In this document: positions 5,262 to 28,883 of the stretch, in pieces
How positions within the stretch are numbered: the stretch's first letter is position 1
How the letters are laid out: the number at the start of each line of letters is the position of its first letter
Assembly: GCA_903871465.1 (NCBI GenBank)
Contig: CAIQHB010000056.1
Coordinates: forward strand, 1 to 64,000
Length of the DNA stretch: 64,000 bases
Origin: an uncultured Methanosarcinales archaeon
GTDB lineage: Archaea; Halobacteriota; Methanosarcinia; Methanotrichales; Methanotrichaceae
Reading direction: 5' to 3'
Translations under genes and position numbers: made by a program
The notes under the pieces: generated by a model
Databases searched by the model: none
What the model saw: the letters and a program-made list of their open reading frames with translations, nothing else
Told to the model about the DNA's origin: nothing

Positions 5262-6047
5262 TTATTCAGCATCATTTTTCTGGGCCACAATGATGATGGA
5301 GTAGGAGCCATCGACGTCTTCGACACTGGGATAAGCAGCAACGTAAGAGAGCCACCGAATCATCTCAGCCGAATGCATTCCCGGCTCATCGGAAAGCTTC
5401 CGCTGGATGCGCTTGGCGTTTGTTAGCTGCTGCTCTCTTCGAAAGAGCGTTTTAGACCAGGACTGGCCCAGTCTATAGATCACCTGCATACCATTCCCCT
5501 GCACCAGCCGGGTGAGGGATGCAAAATTGAACCACTGCTTATGGGATTTGTTCCTGGGAAGGCCGGCGCTATCACCCGACTCAGAAAGGACGTTCGGAAC
5601 CGAGCATATGAAAAAGCCGCCCGGCCGCAGAAGTCTCTGAAACTGGTCTACAGCTCGATTGGGGTCAACAAGATGCTCAAGGGTCTCAAAGCTGACCACA
5701 GCATCGACCGATCCCTCGCTTATATGCAAAGACAAATTCCCTTCTTCCAGGTCGTTATGGAGAAATTGGATGTTGGGTCGATTGCACTTCTGTTTGGCCA
5801 GCTCCATCAGATCCGTGCTGCCATCAACTCCGAAAACCGTCCCGGCAACATTGCATAGCTCCAGCGCACCGTATCCCATGCCGCAGGAGATATCGGCTAC
5901 AACCTCCGGATTTTGTGTCCGGAGAAAGTCTGCCGCAAAGAGGTAGCGACCCAGGTACTCAGCCTTTCGCCAGAGGTTGGTGTCGTTGATGTCAAAGGGG
6001 TCGATCTGATCCAGACCGGTGCCGCTGTATGCAGAATATGATGACAA
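5262..6047 (-). CDS. Class I SAM-dependent methyltransferase
   Basis: The 261-residue protein has the class I methyltransferase fold. Motif I reads VADISCGMGYGALEL near residues 49-63, the acidic end of beta-2 is VFGVDGS, motif IV is VVSFETLEHL and the following element is LLRPGGFFICSVPN. The Gly-rich loop is altered (CGMGYG instead of GxGxG), within the range for functional enzymes. The N-terminus (DPFDINDTNLWRKAEYLGRY) is typical of small-molecule or sugar/lipid methyltransferases acting on surface glycans. The neighbours give no clue to the substrate. Confidence 0.75.
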   Translation of the reverse strand: MSSYSAYSGTGLDQIDPFDINDTNLWRKAEYLGRYLFAADFLRTQNPEVVADISCGMGYGALELCNVAGTVFGVDGSTDLMELAKQKCNRPNIQFLHNDLEEGNLSLHISEGSVDAVVSFETLEHLVDPNRAVDQFQRLLRPGGFFICSVPNVLSESGDSAGLPRNKSHKQWFNFASLTRLVQGNGMQVIYRLGQSWSKTLFRREQQLTNAKRIQRKLSDEPGMHSAEMIRWLSYVAAYPSVEDVDGSYSIIIVAQKNDAE

Positions 6048-6139
6048 TTTTCAGGCCTTCCGACAATCTCTTTTCCTTGGTGATGCTTTAAGCAATTAGA
6101 TGTGCGTTGAATCTTTCTTGGCAATAATGCATTTTAATC

Positions 6140-6460
6140 AAACTCCCGGACAATAAAACTTATCGTCTGGAATAATCCGGGAGAATGAATCGGAAGGGTA
6201 AGCAGCTCTTCGGCTTTGGCCACGAACTCCTTTCAGGACCTGCTGATCCTTCAGCTCTTTGGCAATCTGCCTGGCAACTTTCGCCTCGGCCTTGGTGGGG
6301 TGTTCTCCTCCATGAGCTGCTTGACAACGGCTTGGCCGCCGGATCCATCTTGGCGATAGCCTCTTTGGAGAGCGCATGGGCAGGATCGGCTTCTTCTAGA
6401 CTCTCGCCTCCATCCAGGACTCAACAGGCGAGGCATCAACTACCCCCCAGTCATGCCGAT
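6140..6460 (-). pseudogene. Frameshifted remnant of a small unknown gene
   Basis: Three minus-strand frames join into one plausible protein if single-base indels are allowed: EEADPAHALSKEAIAKMD, then VVKQLMEENTP, then KAEAKVARQIAKELKDQQVL, then EFVAKAEELLTLP. The joins fall near 6335, 6297 and 6240. The restored product is a helical, charged protein that I do not recognise. The pattern is that of a decaying gene beside the toxin-antitoxin pair. Confidence 0.45.
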
Positions 6461-10877: not shown

Positions 10878-11144
10878 TGATCAATCACACCATAATTTAT
10901 TTCTTGATGAATTCTGCATCGATCTGCAATTTTCCGCTCCGGAACAACTTTCAAAACTCCGATGCAGATGGATATTCGATATGATATTGGACAGACGTTC
11001 TCTTGAGATTCATTTTACCCAAATTATTGTTTGTCTATTTTCTTAGGATAGATCCGCCAATAATCCGTCATCCTATGATAATAGACCTTGCATAGTACAA
11101 GAAATTTGCGATTTCTATACCCTGCTTTGAACGGGATAATGAAC
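10878..11144. other. Intergenic region between ppsA and repeat copy A
   Basis: AT-rich DNA with no credible gene. The part next to 10877 should hold the ppsA promoter (minus strand, AT-rich AAATAAATTATG followed by GGTGTGATTG near the start). Nothing else recognisable was seen. Confidence 0.4.
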
Positions 11145-11842
11145 AAGGAGGGAGGCAAAAGTCATCAGCATGCGGGAGGGAAAATAGGCTATCGACTTTT
11201 GCCTATGTACTATAAGTCTATTGCCGATATTTAAGGCTTTCGACGTTGGAAATCGAAACAAAAATCCTTATTTGAAGGAATAAACAGAAAACAGCAAAAT
11301 CGAAATCCCCGGGCAGGCCAGCGCCGAAATTCACAGCGCCCGTGTAGGAGGAGCCAGTCACCTGAGCGACAGCCTGGCCCTGCCCGAAGCTCGACAATCG
11401 ATCTGGGCTCGAAGGCGGCACAGCGCTGGAATAGAACACAGCGTCCTTTTTACGGGAACCCGTTATCATGGGGCCTTAAGCCCGCCTTCAGCCAATGGTT
11501 AGCTGCCGCGCCTGCATCCCGACCGTGTATTAGCGCGAGAGGACCTCAGCCGTTTGCTACGTCAATTAAGACATGCAACTTTCCGCAGCCGAGATTTTTT
11601 AGCCTCACAGGCTCGTAGCCGAATGCATTGCCGCGAAGGCATACATCTCCTGGAACAAGGGATACGATTTTCGCCCTAGGAGCGACCGCATGCTGCCCCT
11701 CGGTAGGGGCAAGCCACTAAGATTTCCTTGCCAAACAGAGCATTATCGGATACGTTAAGCCCACGGCACGCCCACCAACCCGTTTCATTGGCGCGACAAA
11801 TTAACTATATAATCGTTATAGATATTTGTAGTTTGCGGTTGA
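11145..11842 (-). ncRNA. Structured non-coding repeat element, copy A (candidate large RNA)
   Basis: This 698-bp tract is homologous along its whole length to 17656-18355. The two share a 24-bp identical block at the left end and a 36-bp identical block at the right end, plus many internal blocks (for example CTTGCCAAACAGAGCATTAT, AGGAGGAGCCAGTCACCTGA, ACGGGAACCCG). No reading frame is kept between the copies. Potential helices occur at matching places: 11312-11321 with 11374-11384 enclosing about 55 nt, a 7-bp hairpin at 11694-11711, and a hairpin at 11555-11577. I place the transcript on the minus strand because the identical right-end block reads there as an A/T-rich TATA-like region with the conserved body about 25 nt downstream, and the far end becomes pyrimidine- and T-rich. 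Strand is inference. Confidence 0.5.
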
Positions 11843-11999
11843 GATGCAGGTCGGTTCTGATGGATGAGGGTAAGCGAACAAACTTTAGGCATTTATGCGA
11901 GGCAACGCTGAGGCAAGCGACGCGAGCTTTGGTTGTCCCAAAGGCATCCCTGGCGCAAGCTTAAATCCCTTCTATGGATGATAAACTGCCAGGGTTATC

Positions 12000-17558: not shown

Positions 17559-17655
17559 GCTTATCCTTCCACCAAACAGTATCATAAATAATTATATATT
17601 AATTTATTTTTAATAGTTATGTCGAGCAGCAAAATAGCTGAATTGAAGAAATAAG

Positions 17656-18355
17656 AAGGAGGGAGGCAAAAGTCATCAGGAGTGTAGGAGGGAGAAAATA
17701 TGCCATCGACTTTCGCCGATGTACTATACGTCAATTGCTATATTTAAGGATTCCGATCCGGACAGATCGCGAGCATGGACCGCCATCGAAGGGAAGAAAC
17801 AAAAAGAACAGCATAATCGATTCCCAGGCAGGCCAGCGCCGAAATCCACAGCGCCCTTTTAGGAGGAGCCAGTCACCTGAGCGACCGCCTGACCCTGCCC
17901 GAAGCTCGACTAAAATTAAGCCTGCTCAAGGCGGCATTTGCACTGGAATTCGACACAGCGTCCTTTTACGGGAACCCGAACTCACTGGGCCTCATGCTCG
18001 CCTCTCGCCTCTGGCTTTGTGCCGCAACATGTCCCGGTCGTGTATTAGCGCGAGATCCTTTCGACAGATTACTGCACCAGTTACAGTGCGCAACTTTTTT
18101 TGCTGCCGAAATTCAAACCTCACAGGCGCCCAAGCCCGAATGCAGTGCCACGACGGCCTAGCATCTCCTGGAACAAGGAAAGCGATCTGATACATAAGCG
18201 ACCGCAAGCTGCCCCACGGAGGGACAGCGATTGAATCATCCTTGCCAAACAGAGCATTATCGGAATCGGTTTTGCCCACGACACACCCGCCACCCTTTGC
18301 ATGAAGCGGCAAACTACTCATATAATCGTTATAGATATTTGTAGTTTGCGGTTGA
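17656..18355 (-). ncRNA. Structured non-coding repeat element, copy B (candidate large RNA)
   Basis: This is the 700-bp partner of 11145-11842, in the same orientation. Possible helices fall at the same positions: 17827-17836 with 17889-17899, hairpin 18210-18226 and hairpin 18074-18089. The last uses GCAC/GTGC where copy A uses GTC/GAC, so the pairing is kept with different bases. The 36 bp at 18320-18355 are identical to copy A and lie at the putative promoter end (minus strand). No protein frame is shared with copy A. It lies between lrp and the nucleotidyltransferase region. Transcript direction is inferred. Confidence 0.5.
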
Positions 18356-18759: not shown

Positions 18760-19443
18760 CTAAAATCGCCCTCGCATTTTACCTTTTTCGTGATACTCAA
18801 ACGCCAAAAGGGATATTTTGTCGCCTATGGGAATGGTCAAATCGTTATCCTGCAGCCGAGCTATGCCTTCCTCAATGTAGTTGATCCAGATCTTCTCTTT
18901 CGCCTCGCCAGCCTTGCGGTACTGCGCCTCTATCTCCCGGTAGACCGCATCAAAGTCCAGGCCTGCAATGACCAGATTGGAGCAGTCCGGAGCGTCTCCC
19001 GGCCGGTTGGCGATCAGCTTCATGATGAAGATGTCCTCCATGGAGGCATCTCTGACCACCAGGCTGCCGAAGGACCTGACTCTTTTAGCCCTCTGCCACA
19101 TAGCCTCGGAGAGGTCAAAGTCGTAGGAGATCCGCCCGGCAAAGATGTCCAGATTGCGCCCGCCCTTCACAGCCAGCCGCGAAACTCCGAGCCGCTCATG
19201 CCTCTTTTCCGGGCCGACGATCTCAAAGCCCAGGGCCTTGGCGGCTGCAAGCAGCCTATCTTTGTCCTCCTCGTTCCTGCAGACCACATCGATATCCTTG
19301 GTGGCGTCCTTGAGCCCCAGCTCCAGCATCACGGCACCGCCTATGAGCAGGGCCTCTACCCTCTGTTCCAGAACCTGGCCGAGCTGCTCGAACAGCTCGT
19401 TAATCTCCTCTTTCCGGGAGATCTTGTCAGAGTTTGATATCAT
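18760..19443 (-). CDS. AbiEii-like nucleotidyltransferase, module 1
   Basis: The 227-residue protein has the minimal nucleotidyltransferase core: LIGGAVMLELGLKDATKDID holds the glycine signature and the DxD metal pair, and LDIFAGRISYDF the third acidic strand. SMEDIFIMKLIANRPGDAPD is the usual helix after the core. This resembles AbiEii-type/DUF6036 nucleotidyltransferases, several of which are toxins that modify tRNA ends or proteins. It overlaps the upstream winged-helix gene by 17 nt. A close paralogue is at 21659-22348. Toxin function is inference from gene layout. Confidence 0.7.
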   Translation of the reverse strand: MISNSDKISRKEEINELFEQLGQVLEQRVEALLIGGAVMLELGLKDATKDIDVVCRNEEDKDRLLAAAKALGFEIVGPEKRHERLGVSRLAVKGGRNLDIFAGRISYDFDLSEAMWQRAKRVRSFGSLVVRDASMEDIFIMKLIANRPGDAPDCSNLVIAGLDFDAVYREIEAQYRKAGEAKEKIWINYIEEGIARLQDNDLTIPIGDKISLLAFEYHEKGKMRGRF

Positions 19444-20305
19444 AGAGATCCGTCCTGTCCTCGATATCGTCCAGGGTTGGATAGCCTTTGATCCTCTCGC
19501 CCTGCAGCACGGCTTTCAGATCTTTCATCATGGGATGATCGATTGCCTCCAATTTATCCCTGTTCTTCAGATAGAACAACACGCAAAAAAGCTTCTGGGA
19601 GAACTCCCATGCCGAGTCCAGGGAGTGTATGAAGACCTCCTGGATGGACATCTCTCTCTTGGGAAGTGTGTAGTAGTAATCCCTCAGCCCCAGCTCGATC
19701 CCGTAATCCTCGTAGGCGGAAAAGGAGGTGAAGGTGGCGTCCTGCGGCCTCAGGCTCTTGAAGAGCACGCTGGTCCCGTAGCTCTTGATGAGCAGGGCTT
19801 CACGGGGCACGAGGCGCAGAACCTGGTATTCCAGGAGCGAAGTCACGAAATCCTTCAGCTCCGGCCAGATGATGTAGTTGAAGGAGAAATGATAGGCTTT
19901 GCCTTGCTTGGAGCGGCTGACGATGCCCACCCAGAGGAAGCCCTTCAGATAGCCGTACAGGGTATCACTGGGGATGCCGGTCTCCACGGCCAGTTCTTCC
20001 AGGCTCCTGGGGGTCCGGTCCAGTCTGGCGAGCAGCTCCACTCGCCGCAGGGAGAGGATCTTATGCAGAGGTGAAGCCCGGTGACTGAAGTAGAGCTTCT
20101 TGAAGGCCTCTGCCGGAGGCGTGCCGGCCAGGACGACTTCGCGCCCACTCCGTTCTGCCAGCCCCATTTCCACCAGGTGAGTTATGAGCCGGGAGACGGT
20201 CTCTCTCCGGAGCCCCAGCTCCGCCTGGAGGGTGGAGGGGTTCACCGGCTCTTTGGATCCGATGATGAGGACAAGCGCCCGGACGTCGTTCTGGCTAAAG
20301 GACAT
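19427..20305 (-). CDS. Winged-helix regulator/antitoxin, module 1
   Basis: This 292-residue protein has two DNA-binding winged-helix segments. The first covers about residues 5-60 (DVRALVLIIGSKEPVNPSTL, GLRRETVSRLITHLVEMGLA). The second covers about 85-140 (RVELLARLDRTPRSLEELAV, GIPSDTLYGYLKGFLWVGIV). The C-terminal half is a conserved domain (LLIKSYGTSVLFKSLRPQDA, SAYEDYGIELGLRDYYYTLP) shared with the paralogue at 22323-23210. The gene precedes and overlaps the nucleotidyltransferase, as AbiEi precedes AbiEii. It is probably repressor and antitoxin in one. The promoter gives a leaderless start. Confidence 0.7.
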   Translation of the reverse strand: MSFSQNDVRALVLIIGSKEPVNPSTLQAELGLRRETVSRLITHLVEMGLAERSGREVVLAGTPPAEAFKKLYFSHRASPLHKILSLRRVELLARLDRTPRSLEELAVETGIPSDTLYGYLKGFLWVGIVSRSKQGKAYHFSFNYIIWPELKDFVTSLLEYQVLRLVPREALLIKSYGTSVLFKSLRPQDATFTSFSAYEDYGIELGLRDYYYTLPKREMSIQEVFIHSLDSAWEFSQKLFCVLFYLKNRDKLEAIDHPMMKDLKAVLQGERIKGYPTLDDIEDRTDLYDIKL

Positions 20306-21658: not shown

Positions 21659-22348
21659 TCAACCAGGTCGAGATGGGCTCAATTTCTGATAAAGCCTCTC
21701 TCTGTACTCATTCGCCAGCTCCGAGATCCTGTCCGCAATGGTCACTTGTAGCTGGTAGTCCTCCTCCAGCTTCCCGATGCCCTCTTCCAGGTAGGTGATC
21801 CAGATCTTTTCCTCGACAGTTCCGGCCTTGAAATATTGAGCCAGAATCTCAGAGTAGATCGCTTCAAAATCCATTTTCGTTGACGCCAGAGAGACGCAAT
21901 CCTCGAGATCCCTTGGCCGGTTGGCGATCAGCTTGAGACTGAAAATGTCCTCCACTGCCGCATACCTCATCTCCGCCTTACCGAGGAGACGGGTCTTCTT
22001 GCCCCTTTGCCACATGCCCTCGGAAAGCCCGAAGTCGTAGGAGATCCGGCCGGCAAAGATGTCCAGGGTGTGTTCACCTTTGATGGCCACCCGGTCCAGG
22101 CCCAGGCGAGCATGCCTCTTCTCCGGCCCAAACACCTCGAAGCCCAGGCTTTTGGCCGCTTCAAGCAGCCTGGCCTTGCCTGTAGCATCCCTGCAAACCA
22201 AGTCGATATCCTTGGTTGCGTCCTTCAGGCCGTATTCCAGCATGGCCGCCCCGCCTATGACCAGAAATGCAACGGGCTCTTTCAATTGCTCGCCCAGACC
22301 CTTCAGTATCTCCTCGACCTCTTCACGGCTCGATATTTGTGATTCCAT
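21659..22348 (-). CDS. AbiEii-like nucleotidyltransferase, module 2
   Basis: The 229-residue product is a close paralogue of the protein at 18760-19443. It has LVIGGAAMLEYGLKDATKDI followed by DLVC (glycine motif and DxD), HTLDIFAGRISYDFGLSEGM and AVEDIFSLKLIANRPRD. I chose the ATG at 22348 because the residues after it align with the start of the first copy; an upstream in-frame ATG at 22369 exists. Its start overlaps the winged-helix gene by 26 nt. The catalytic residues are intact, so both copies could be active. Confidence 0.7.
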   Translation of the reverse strand: MESQISSREEVEEILKGLGEQLKEPVAFLVIGGAAMLEYGLKDATKDIDLVCRDATGKARLLEAAKSLGFEVFGPEKRHARLGLDRVAIKGEHTLDIFAGRISYDFGLSEGMWQRGKKTRLLGKAEMRYAAVEDIFSLKLIANRPRDLEDCVSLASTKMDFEAIYSEILAQYFKAGTVEEKIWITYLEEGIGKLEEDYQLQVTIADRISELANEYRERLYQKLSPSRPG

Positions 22349-23210
22349 AAAGTTCCGCCTGCTCTTCAATATCGTCTTTAGTGGGATAGCCCTTGATATG
22401 CTCTCCCCTCAGGACCTCCCGGATGCTCTTAATCATGGGATGCCGGGCATCTTTCAATTCATCTCTGTTCTTCAGGTAAAACAATATGCAAAAGAGCCTC
22501 TGGCGGTAGTCTTCCGCGGAGTCGAGGGAGTGGATGAAGACCTCTTGGATGGATAGCTCCCTTTTGGGCAGGGTATAGTAGTTGTCCCGCAGGCCCAGCT
22601 TGATCCCGTACTCGTTGTAGGCGCTGAAGGATGTAAGCGTGGCGTCCTGCTGCTTCAGGCTCTTGAAGAGTACGCTATCTTCATAGCTCTTGATGAGCAG
22701 CGCATCCCTGGGGACGAGGCGCACCACCTGGAATTCCTGCAGAGCGGTTACGAAATCCTTCAGCTCCGGCCAGATGACGTAGTTGAAGGAGTAGAGGTAG
22801 GCTTTGCCCTGCATGGAGCGGCTGACAATTCCCAGGGGACGAAGGCCCTGCAGATAGTAGTAGACGGTGTCGCTGGAGATGCCCGTCTCCTCGGCCAGAG
22901 TTTCCAGGCTCTTAGGCTGGCTGTCCAGCCGGGAGAGGAGCTCCACTCTCCGGCCGGACAGGATCTCCGATAAGGGAGAGGCACGGTGAGAGTAGTAGAG
23001 GCGCTTGAAGGCCTCAGCTGGAGGCGTTCCGGCCAGCAGGATCTCGCCTCCCGCCCGCTCCACCAGGCCAATATCTTGCAGGCTGGTAATGATGCGTGAG
23101 ATGGAGCCTTTCAAGAGGCCCATCTCCTTCTGGAGGCCGCTGGGATGCACTGGCTCCTGGGAGCGGGTGATGAGGATCAGGGCGTGGACTTCGTTCTCGC
23201 TGATATGCAT
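22323..23210 (-). CDS. Winged-helix regulator/antitoxin, module 2
   Basis: This 295-residue paralogue of the 19427-20305 product has the same plan. The first winged helix is at about 6-60 (EVHALILITRSQEPVHPSGL, KGSISRIITSLQDIGLVERA), the second at about 85-140 (RVELLSRLDSQPKSLETLAE, GISSDTVYYYLQGLRPLGIV). The conserved C-terminal domain has LLIKSYEDSVLFKSLKQQDA and KRELSIQEVFIHSLDSAEDY. Divergence is greatest in the first recognition helix, which suggests that each copy reads a different operator. TATA-like sequence stands about 30 nt upstream. Confidence 0.7.
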   Translation of the reverse strand: MHISENEVHALILITRSQEPVHPSGLQKEMGLLKGSISRIITSLQDIGLVERAGGEILLAGTPPAEAFKRLYYSHRASPLSEILSGRRVELLSRLDSQPKSLETLAEETGISSDTVYYYLQGLRPLGIVSRSMQGKAYLYSFNYVIWPELKDFVTALQEFQVVRLVPRDALLIKSYEDSVLFKSLKQQDATLTSFSAYNEYGIKLGLRDNYYTLPKRELSIQEVFIHSLDSAEDYRQRLFCILFYLKNRDELKDARHPMIKSIREVLRGEHIKGYPTKDDIEEQAELYGITNIEP

Positions 23211-27630: not shown

Positions 27631-28257
27631 ATGAAGCCAATTTTAATAATTTTGTTTCTGGGAATTATGGTCCTATTTTGCGGGTGTATCCAGCCGCAAG
27701 CGGGACCTCAAGTGAAGACGACCGCGGCGTCGGAAGAATGGAAGCCGGATGGCATTGTAGGAGCAAACGAATATGCCAGAACCATGACCTTGCAGGCACC
27801 CGCCAGCAACGGCTACTCCGGCGGAACCATGACGCTCTCCTGGAAGAACGATGCCGAGTACCTCTACCTGGCACTCAACGGCACGACCCGGGGCTGGGTT
27901 TCCTTAGGCTTTGAGCCGACAGTCTGGATGAAGGATGCCGATATCATCATTGGCTCAGTTGAGAATGGAAGAGTGACCGTTCTCGATGAGAACTGCACCG
28001 GCAACTACGGCCCGCATGAGAACGACACTCTCCTGGGTGGAACTTACGATATCCTGGAGTCCGGCGGAAGCGAAAAAGGCGGCAATACAGTGATCGAGCT
28101 CAAGAGGAAGATGAATACCGGCGATAAATTCGATAAGGCCTTCGTTCCCGGCCAGCAGGTACCCATAATCTGGGCCATGGCCGACACCACCGACAACAGC
28201 GCCAAGCACAACATGGCCGAAGGAGAGGGAGTTATGGCGATGGAGGGCGGGGTCTAG
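27631..28257 (+). CDS. DOMON-domain lipoprotein
   Basis: From the ATG at 27631 the protein (208 residues) has a lipoprotein-type signal, MKPILIILFLGIMVLFCGC, with the cysteine of the lipobox at about residue 19. The rest is a DOMON-type beta sandwich: DGIVGANEYARTMTL, MTLSWKNDAEYLYLALNGTT, RGWVSLGFEPTVWMKDADII and IWAMADTTDNSAKHNMAEGE. DOMON domains bind haem or sugars; residues resembling the haem-ligand Met of cytochrome-type members are present but not decisive. The protein should be anchored on the outer face of the membrane. In-frame upstream starts exist but would bury the signal. Confidence 0.75.
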   Translation: MKPILIILFLGIMVLFCGCIQPQAGPQVKTTAASEEWKPDGIVGANEYARTMTLQAPASNGYSGGTMTLSWKNDAEYLYLALNGTTRGWVSLGFEPTVWMKDADIIIGSVENGRVTVLDENCTGNYGPHENDTLLGGTYDILESGGSEKGGNTVIELKRKMNTGDKFDKAFVPGQQVPIIWAMADTTDNSAKHNMAEGEGVMAMEGGV

Positions 28258-28397
28258 AAGTCCGGAAGTCCGGGCGCCTTGCCCAATGGAGCATGACGAG
28301 GCTGTCATGCTCCAGTAATCCAGTATTTTTCCGGAAATAACATATCCTGAAGAAGCAGAAGAGAAGCAGAAGCAATCGAAAAAGAGAGGAGTCAATT

Positions 28398-28883
28398 ATG
28401 GTTGAAGTTGGAGATGCGGCACCGGTGTTCTGCCTGCCCGGTGCGAGCAATCAGGAGATCTGCCTGGAAAGCTATCAGGGCAAATGGCTGGTGCTCTACT
28501 TTTATCCCAAGGACAACACCAGCGGCTGCACCAGGGAGGCGGTGGACTTCACTGCCGCCCTGCCTGAGCTGCATGAATTGGGAGCAGAAGTGGTGGGAAT
28601 CAGCCGCGACTCGCCTGCCAGCCACGGGAAGTTTGCCGAAAAGCACGGTCTGAAGGTATTGCTGCTCAGCGACCAGGACCACAAGGTCACAGAAGCTTAT
28701 GGTGCCTGGGCCCTGAAGAAGATGTACGGCAAAGAGAGCTTTGGCGTTGTCAGGTCCACATTTCTCATCGATCCGAAAGGGCGGATTGCCCGCATCTGGA
28801 GGAAGGTCAAGGTCGAAGGGCACGCGCAGGGCGTGATAGAGGCCTTGCAGGAGCTCCAACGAATTGGTGACGAGAAAAAATAG
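28398..28883 (+). CDS. bcp: Peroxiredoxin, Bcp/PrxQ type
   Basis: The 161-residue protein reduces peroxides with a thiol donor such as thioredoxin. The peroxidatic site is YPKDNTSGCTREAVDF, where the catalytic Cys is at about residue 47. The usual resolving Cys five residues before it in many PrxQ proteins is not present (DNTSGC only), so a 1-Cys or other resolving arrangement is likely. RSTFLIDPKGRIARIWRKVK is the conserved C-terminal strand region. A good GAGGAG site precedes the ATG. Confidence 0.9.
   Translation: MVEVGDAAPVFCLPGASNQEICLESYQGKWLVLYFYPKDNTSGCTREAVDFTAALPELHELGAEVVGISRDSPASHGKFAEKHGLKVLLLSDQDHKVTEAYGAWALKKMYGKESFGVVRSTFLIDPKGRIARIWRKVKVEGHAQGVIEALQELQRIGDEKK

Follow-up and report, generated by a model that had tools for sequence, protein, structure and literature searches.

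A predicted multi-copy structured noncoding RNA of Methanotrichaceae and a candidate small RNA gene downstream of it

Large ornate noncoding RNAs, of which OLE, GOLLD and ROOL are examples, are known chiefly from bacteria and their phages. In GOLLD the 3' domain is conserved and the 5' domain variable, and ROOL is a large ornate RNA without a known protein partner (PMC12286853). OLE is a structured RNA of ~600 nt that forms a ribonucleoprotein in bacteria (PMC9723947). Among small archaeal RNAs, sRNA162 of Methanosarcina mazei acts in trans, base pairing with a ribosome binding site and so masking it (PMC3510493).

The window examined here, the whole 64,000-nucleotide stretch of contig CAIQHB010000056.1 from an uncultured Methanosarcinales archaeon, a methanogen related to Methanothrix, contains a noncoding repeat of ~700 nt twice (copy A at about 11,138-11,858 and copy B at about 17,651-18,347), and two more full-length copies lie elsewhere in the same genome. 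On sequence comparison A and B are paralogues, each with a ~530-nt structured noncoding RNA inside the repeat. The ends of this large RNA were placed by the promoter spacing and the U-rich tract, and two covariance models, R1 for its domain D2 and R2 for a hairpin in its domain D1, both add more distant copies. The features of the large RNA are as follows.

11274..11803, minus strand: copy A of the large structured RNA (~530 nt), supported by 18 aligned homologues and their consensus fold; predicted start near 11803, predicted end in the U-rich tract 11298-11274
17790..18316, minus strand: copy B of the large structured RNA (~527 nt), supported by the same alignment and fold; R1 match 17810-17930, R2 match 18032-18137
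11808..11842, minus strand: predicted promoter of copy A, BRE-like ACCGCAAA and TATA-like CTACAAATATC, conserved up to the start
18321..18355, minus strand: predicted promoter of copy B, exact CTACAAATATCTATAACGATTATA at 18321-18344
11504..11798, minus strand: domain D1 of copy A, with P1 as its closing helix; R2 match 11517-11622
11798-11791 with 11512-11504, minus strand: helix P1 of copy A, 14-bp, tabulated in 18 sequences
11299..11474, minus strand: domain D2 of copy A, with its hairpin module twice (~11474-11424 and ~11374-11321); R1 match 11293-11413

A protein-coding reading of the repeat was rejected, as the open reading frames of copy B (151 aa on the plus strand, 109 aa on the minus strand) have no counterpart of at least 100 aa in copy A, and it is also contradicted by the alignment, which contains single-base indels throughout.

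The predicted archaeal promoter of the large RNA is private to it and very conserved. When up to three mismatches are allowed, CTACAAATATCTATAACGATTATA is found only at large-RNA copies in this genome (G000) and in G004 and G020; its four sites in this genome are the four full-length copies, and reversed-pattern controls returned 0. A promoter of the form ACCGCAAACTACAAATATCTATAACGATTATATAGATAG stands upstream of the stem TTTGCCGC, at a spacing that is constant in distant copies. In many copies the TATA-like element is flanked by GCAAACTA and TAGTTTGC (11790-11842 in copy A), which together make up an inverted repeat and may be an operator.

Downstream of this promoter the RNA is predicted to fold as two modules. 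Its 5' end would pair with a GCGGCA segment, TTTGCCGC(TTCATGCC) with (GGCATGAA)GCGGCA, to form helix P1 and close D1, and the same helix was predicted independently in divergent class II copies. The computed pairing probability of P1 is ~0.94 in copy A but 0.27 in copy B, against 0.66 for a competing local hairpin at the 5' end; the placing of some modelled helices, such as P1 in copy B, is uncertain. D2 carries one set of hairpins, CC-UAAAA-GG and then CGCUGUG...CAGCG, twice over, and the D2 model returns a second, weak match in copy A (11397-11516, E 0.001). The 3' end is a U-rich tract. By computation D1 and D2 appear as separable modules: D1-only copies (e.g. L019, L020, L065) stop right after P1 in a T-run, and L056 and L061 are D2-only.

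The consensus fold of the 18 sequences comprises 129 pairs with 97.3% of cells paired, a value that falls to 40-43% when the partner is slid by 1-3 columns. Thirteen pairs are doubly changed compared with 4.7±1.6 in shuffles, none of 500 shuffles reaching 13, although this comparison, like the other shuffle tests, is inflated by the relatedness of the sequences. Double changes were also counted in larger alignments, fitted to the covariance models by a procedure that favours pairing: 80 homologues of the 3' domain D2 (R1) and 57 of the D1 hairpin (R2). Of 36 D2 pairs 30 are doubly changed, at 114 cells, where shuffles give 13.7 pairs and 32 cells; of 24 D1-hairpin pairs 20 are doubly changed, at 105 cells, where shuffles give 9.8 pairs and 18 cells. 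In class II the 5' half differs too much from that of A and B for a good alignment; these copies, aligned with no structure model, have a fold of their own (-68.2 versus -23.3±4.0 in shuffles), with double changes at 18 pairs and 170 G·U cells to 15 A·C. The helices are kept by compensatory changes beyond controls, as is the general mark of structured noncoding RNAs.

The fold has a strand. For the 18 full-length copies RNAalifold gives -147.7 kcal/mol on the minus strand versus -81.2±7.1 in shuffles, and -86.2 kcal/mol versus -64.5±8.0 on the plus strand, the controls being column shuffles that preserve conservation and gaps. Among minus-strand consensus pairs G·U outnumbers A·C in the 18 full-length sequences (509:24 cells), the 80 D2 sequences (613:53) and the 57 D1 sequences (207:14). 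Standard pairing in the full-length, D2 and D1 alignments amounts to 97, 94 and 95% on the minus strand versus 76, 74 and 80% on the plus strand. Given the G·U asymmetry, the better pairing and the better fold energy, the selected fold is that of the minus-strand transcript.

The element is probably a minus-strand gene for this ~530-nt RNA, with an archaeal promoter of its own and a separate gene for a small RNA behind it. The large RNA would most likely act in trans, as the scaffold for a stable particle of RNA or of RNA and protein in which D1 and D2 would be separable binding modules. A scaffold role is suggested because the modules repeat and occur separately, and action in trans because the flanking genes and their orientation vary. 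We would go further only tentatively, to a new large RNA machine of the acetate-using Methanotrichaceae: a two-module, multi-copy RNA or RNP particle, exchangeable between chromosome and mobile element, that may work with family-wide small RNAs resembling anti-Shine-Dalgarno sequences. This lineage is a major source of biological methane. A large-RNA family that covaries well and is comparable to the bacterial and phage examples has now been found in archaea, a single genome holding as many as about ten paralogues, and its natural D1-only and D2-only versions make the functions of the domains directly testable. Since Rfam 15 holds no model for the large RNA, annotation that relies on Rfam would leave these loci blank.

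By the tests available, the large RNA is a new family. Rfam models gave no match in the window at the gathering score, only two sub-threshold matches to unrelated families in 10.9-18.8 kb up to E=5, and no match over the RNA in 11 divergent loci; no published description was found in the literature searched, whose coverage leaves out most subscription journals. Membership in GOLLD, ROOL or OLE was rejected, as the RNA does not match their covariance models. It is best read as an archaeal counterpart of these RNAs in kind, not by homology. It resembles GOLLD in joining a conserved 3' domain to a variable 5' domain (class II has another 5' domain), but it is archaeal, chromosomal, multi-copy, shorter and without an Rfam match. 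Like ROOL it is a large ornate RNA for which no protein partner is known; unlike ROOL it is absent from phage records and has separable domains D1 and D2, again with no Rfam match. Like OLE, which has about 600 nt, it is a large structured RNA; it is found in Methanotrichaceae only, in several paralogues, without a constant neighbour protein or an Rfam match.

That the RNA goes beyond such likeness and is an RNA-only particle of the GOLLD and ROOL type, self-oligomerising and perhaps a viral RNA that the host has retained, is unlikely, even if it survives better than the other alternatives. Its large size and the GOLLD-like domain layout (PMC12286853) would fit, as would the presence of one copy near ParA and integrase genes on an IMG/VR contig. 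This contig (L149, 30.6 kb) carries the large RNA at 5894-6436, with a ParA gene on one side of it, a phage-type integrase on the other and a repeat protein also adjacent, and is the exception to a chromosomal, multi-copy distribution that lacks the phage or prophage location typical of GOLLD and ROOL. Against the particle stand this distribution, the want of any matching Rfam family, the lack of any match in GenBank phages or PLSDB plasmids, and the absence from the window of tRNA genes, near islands of which GOLLD and ROOL are often found.

DNA matches to the repeat were found in 25 of 25 same-genus genomes searched and in several other Methanotrichaceae genera, some of them covering only the small-RNA part. 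The D2 model hit 28 of 61 relatives, with 1-10 matches per positive genome; in this genome it hit the internal repeat and eight separate loci. The D1 hairpin model hit 23 of the 61 and the small-RNA model 37. None of the three was found in 24 class-mates outside Methanotrichaceae, the D2 and small-RNA models had no match outside the family in phylum-wide scans of 295 genomes, and in a pattern scan of genome contigs all true matches were titled Methanothrix, Methanosaeta or Methanotrichaceae, the others being chance. The large RNA was found only in Methanotrichaceae and, once, on the IMG/VR contig L149.

The L149 copy lies with ParA and integrase genes, and the large RNA can therefore probably travel. 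Copy A stands upstream of ScpB, where the RNA is absent from 25 of 25 other family ScpB loci within the stretch examined; no clean empty site was found, and the gene order of the relatives upstream of ScpB differs too. Synteny with G004, which has two copies at a similar ~6.6-kb spacing, was rejected since no protein-coding gene there is common with the window. The non-conserved position of copy A and the L149 contig could suggest a noncoding mobile element, such as a MITE or an IS remnant, whose hairpins act as DNA. Such an origin is improbable: DNA hairpins would not favour G·U over A·C as strongly as the full-length copies do, and the promoter at constant spacing and the missing empty site argue against it as well.

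The neighbouring genes speak against a cis-acting leader, a riboswitch or attenuator of the gene downstream. This reading draws on copies A and B, each of which has a co-directional gene (PPDK and Lrp/AsnC) within 160-265 nt downstream of the repeat. Among 31 copies, however, the longest downstream open reading frame, a rule applied here without a gene caller, runs the same way as the RNA in 11 and the opposite way in 20, the flanking genes differ between copies and are mutually unrelated, and the RNA has a U-rich 3' end, with a second promoter before the small RNA; we hold a leader to be quite improbable. Twelve loci (L005, L008, L011, L023, L032, L034, L035, L036, L045, L047, L048 and L067) do have a DUF1699 (PF08004) gene adjoining the large RNA, in two arrangements. 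This adjacency is suggestive; no partnership is claimed, the family being common in Methanosarcinia genomes without the RNA.

Two further sets of neighbours may be recorded. Near copy B lie two copies, both on the minus strand (18760-20305 and 21659-23210), of a gene pair for a nucleotidyltransferase of the DUF6036 type and a winged-helix partner, possibly a toxin-antitoxin-like system; the first pair was checked against Pfam. In G017 and G004 the RNA copies have beside them a protein that looks secreted and carries a ubiquitin-like domain (PF00240, checked on the protein at L013 2326-3345) and a related open reading frame at L281 15365-16162.

A ribozyme or intron-type catalytic RNA would account for a fold so ornate and strongly conserved, yet covariance models of group I and II introns, RNase P and SRP RNA have no match, nor does any other ribozyme model, and the element is intergenic with its own promoter instead of lying within a gene, which leaves catalysis of this kind very improbable. 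A plus-strand RNA, as the plus-strand notation of the first-pass annotation implied, can be dismissed with near certainty on the fold energies and pairing percentages given above, its stems being readable only because G-C and A-U pairs are strand-symmetric.

The same symmetry explains why that annotation could see stems that belong to the minus-strand transcript. It had described three helices shared by copies A and B, and all three are present where it placed them, within the following minus-strand helices.

11395-11375 with 11320-11299, and 17910-17890 with 17835-17816 in copy B, minus strand: helix 18
11709-11705 with 11699-11695, and 18225-18221 with 18215-18211 in copy B, minus strand: helix 6
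11579-11553, and 18094-18068 in copy B, minus strand: helix 12, with compensatory changes

Helix 18 contains the 10-bp helix that had been drawn between 11312-11321 and 11374-11384 (17827-17836 and 17889-17899 in copy B). On the plus strand this helix has one bulged C in copy A, to which copy B adds a C-A mismatch that becomes a G·U pair on the minus strand. The stem at 11694-11711 and 18210-18226 is helix 6, one pair of which is CG in 9, UA in 7 and UG in 2 of the 18 sequences. Helix 12 corresponds to the stem in which GTC and GAC of copy A (11555-11577) were set against GCAC and GTGC of copy B (18074-18089), and its compensatory changes (GC-to-AU, CG-to-UA) affect three pairs in the 18 sequences and 7 of 10 pairs in the 57. 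The argument drawn from these stems, that different bases with the same fold argue for selection at the RNA level, holds: joint folding puts the minus strand far beyond its shuffled controls, and compensatory changes are abundant among the 80 homologues of D2 and the 57 of the D1 hairpin. RNA-level selection on the fold is strongly supported, and the strand, the extent (an RNA of ~530 nt in a repeat of ~700 nt) and the homologues are new here.

The remainder of the repeat is occupied by the candidate small RNA, modelled as R3.

11141..11251, minus strand: small RNA after copy A, with BRE/TATA CGAAAGCCTTAAATATCGG, a hairpin with a CCCUCC loop and a CCUCCCUCCUU tail; match to R3
17652..17764, minus strand: small RNA after copy B; match to R3, 102.6 bits

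The U-rich tract of the large RNA is followed by BRE/TATA elements CGAAAGCC-TTATATATC and then by the hairpin GGCAAAAGTCG...CGACTTTTGCC, for which an alignment of 53 copies gives the loop UUUUCCCUCCUACA and the tail CCUCCCUCCUU. Its strand signal is weaker than that of the large RNA (G·U to A·C 38:26), and its predicted place on the minus strand rests mainly on its promoter. It is probably a separate new sRNA family. Its CCCUCC loops resemble an anti-Shine-Dalgarno sequence and would fit a regulator of such a type, which recalls the masking of ribosome binding sites by Methanosarcina mazei sRNA162 and similar archaeal sRNAs; RNAs of the sRNA162 type are, however, much shorter than the large RNA and have another fold, and their reported homologues are from Methanosarcina only. 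R3 finds 13 copies in this genome and matches in 37 of the 37 family genomes searched, with up to 14 per genome. The small RNA also occurs in genomes in which the large RNA was not detected, and it is sometimes arranged in tandem (G035:C24, about 28175-28705).
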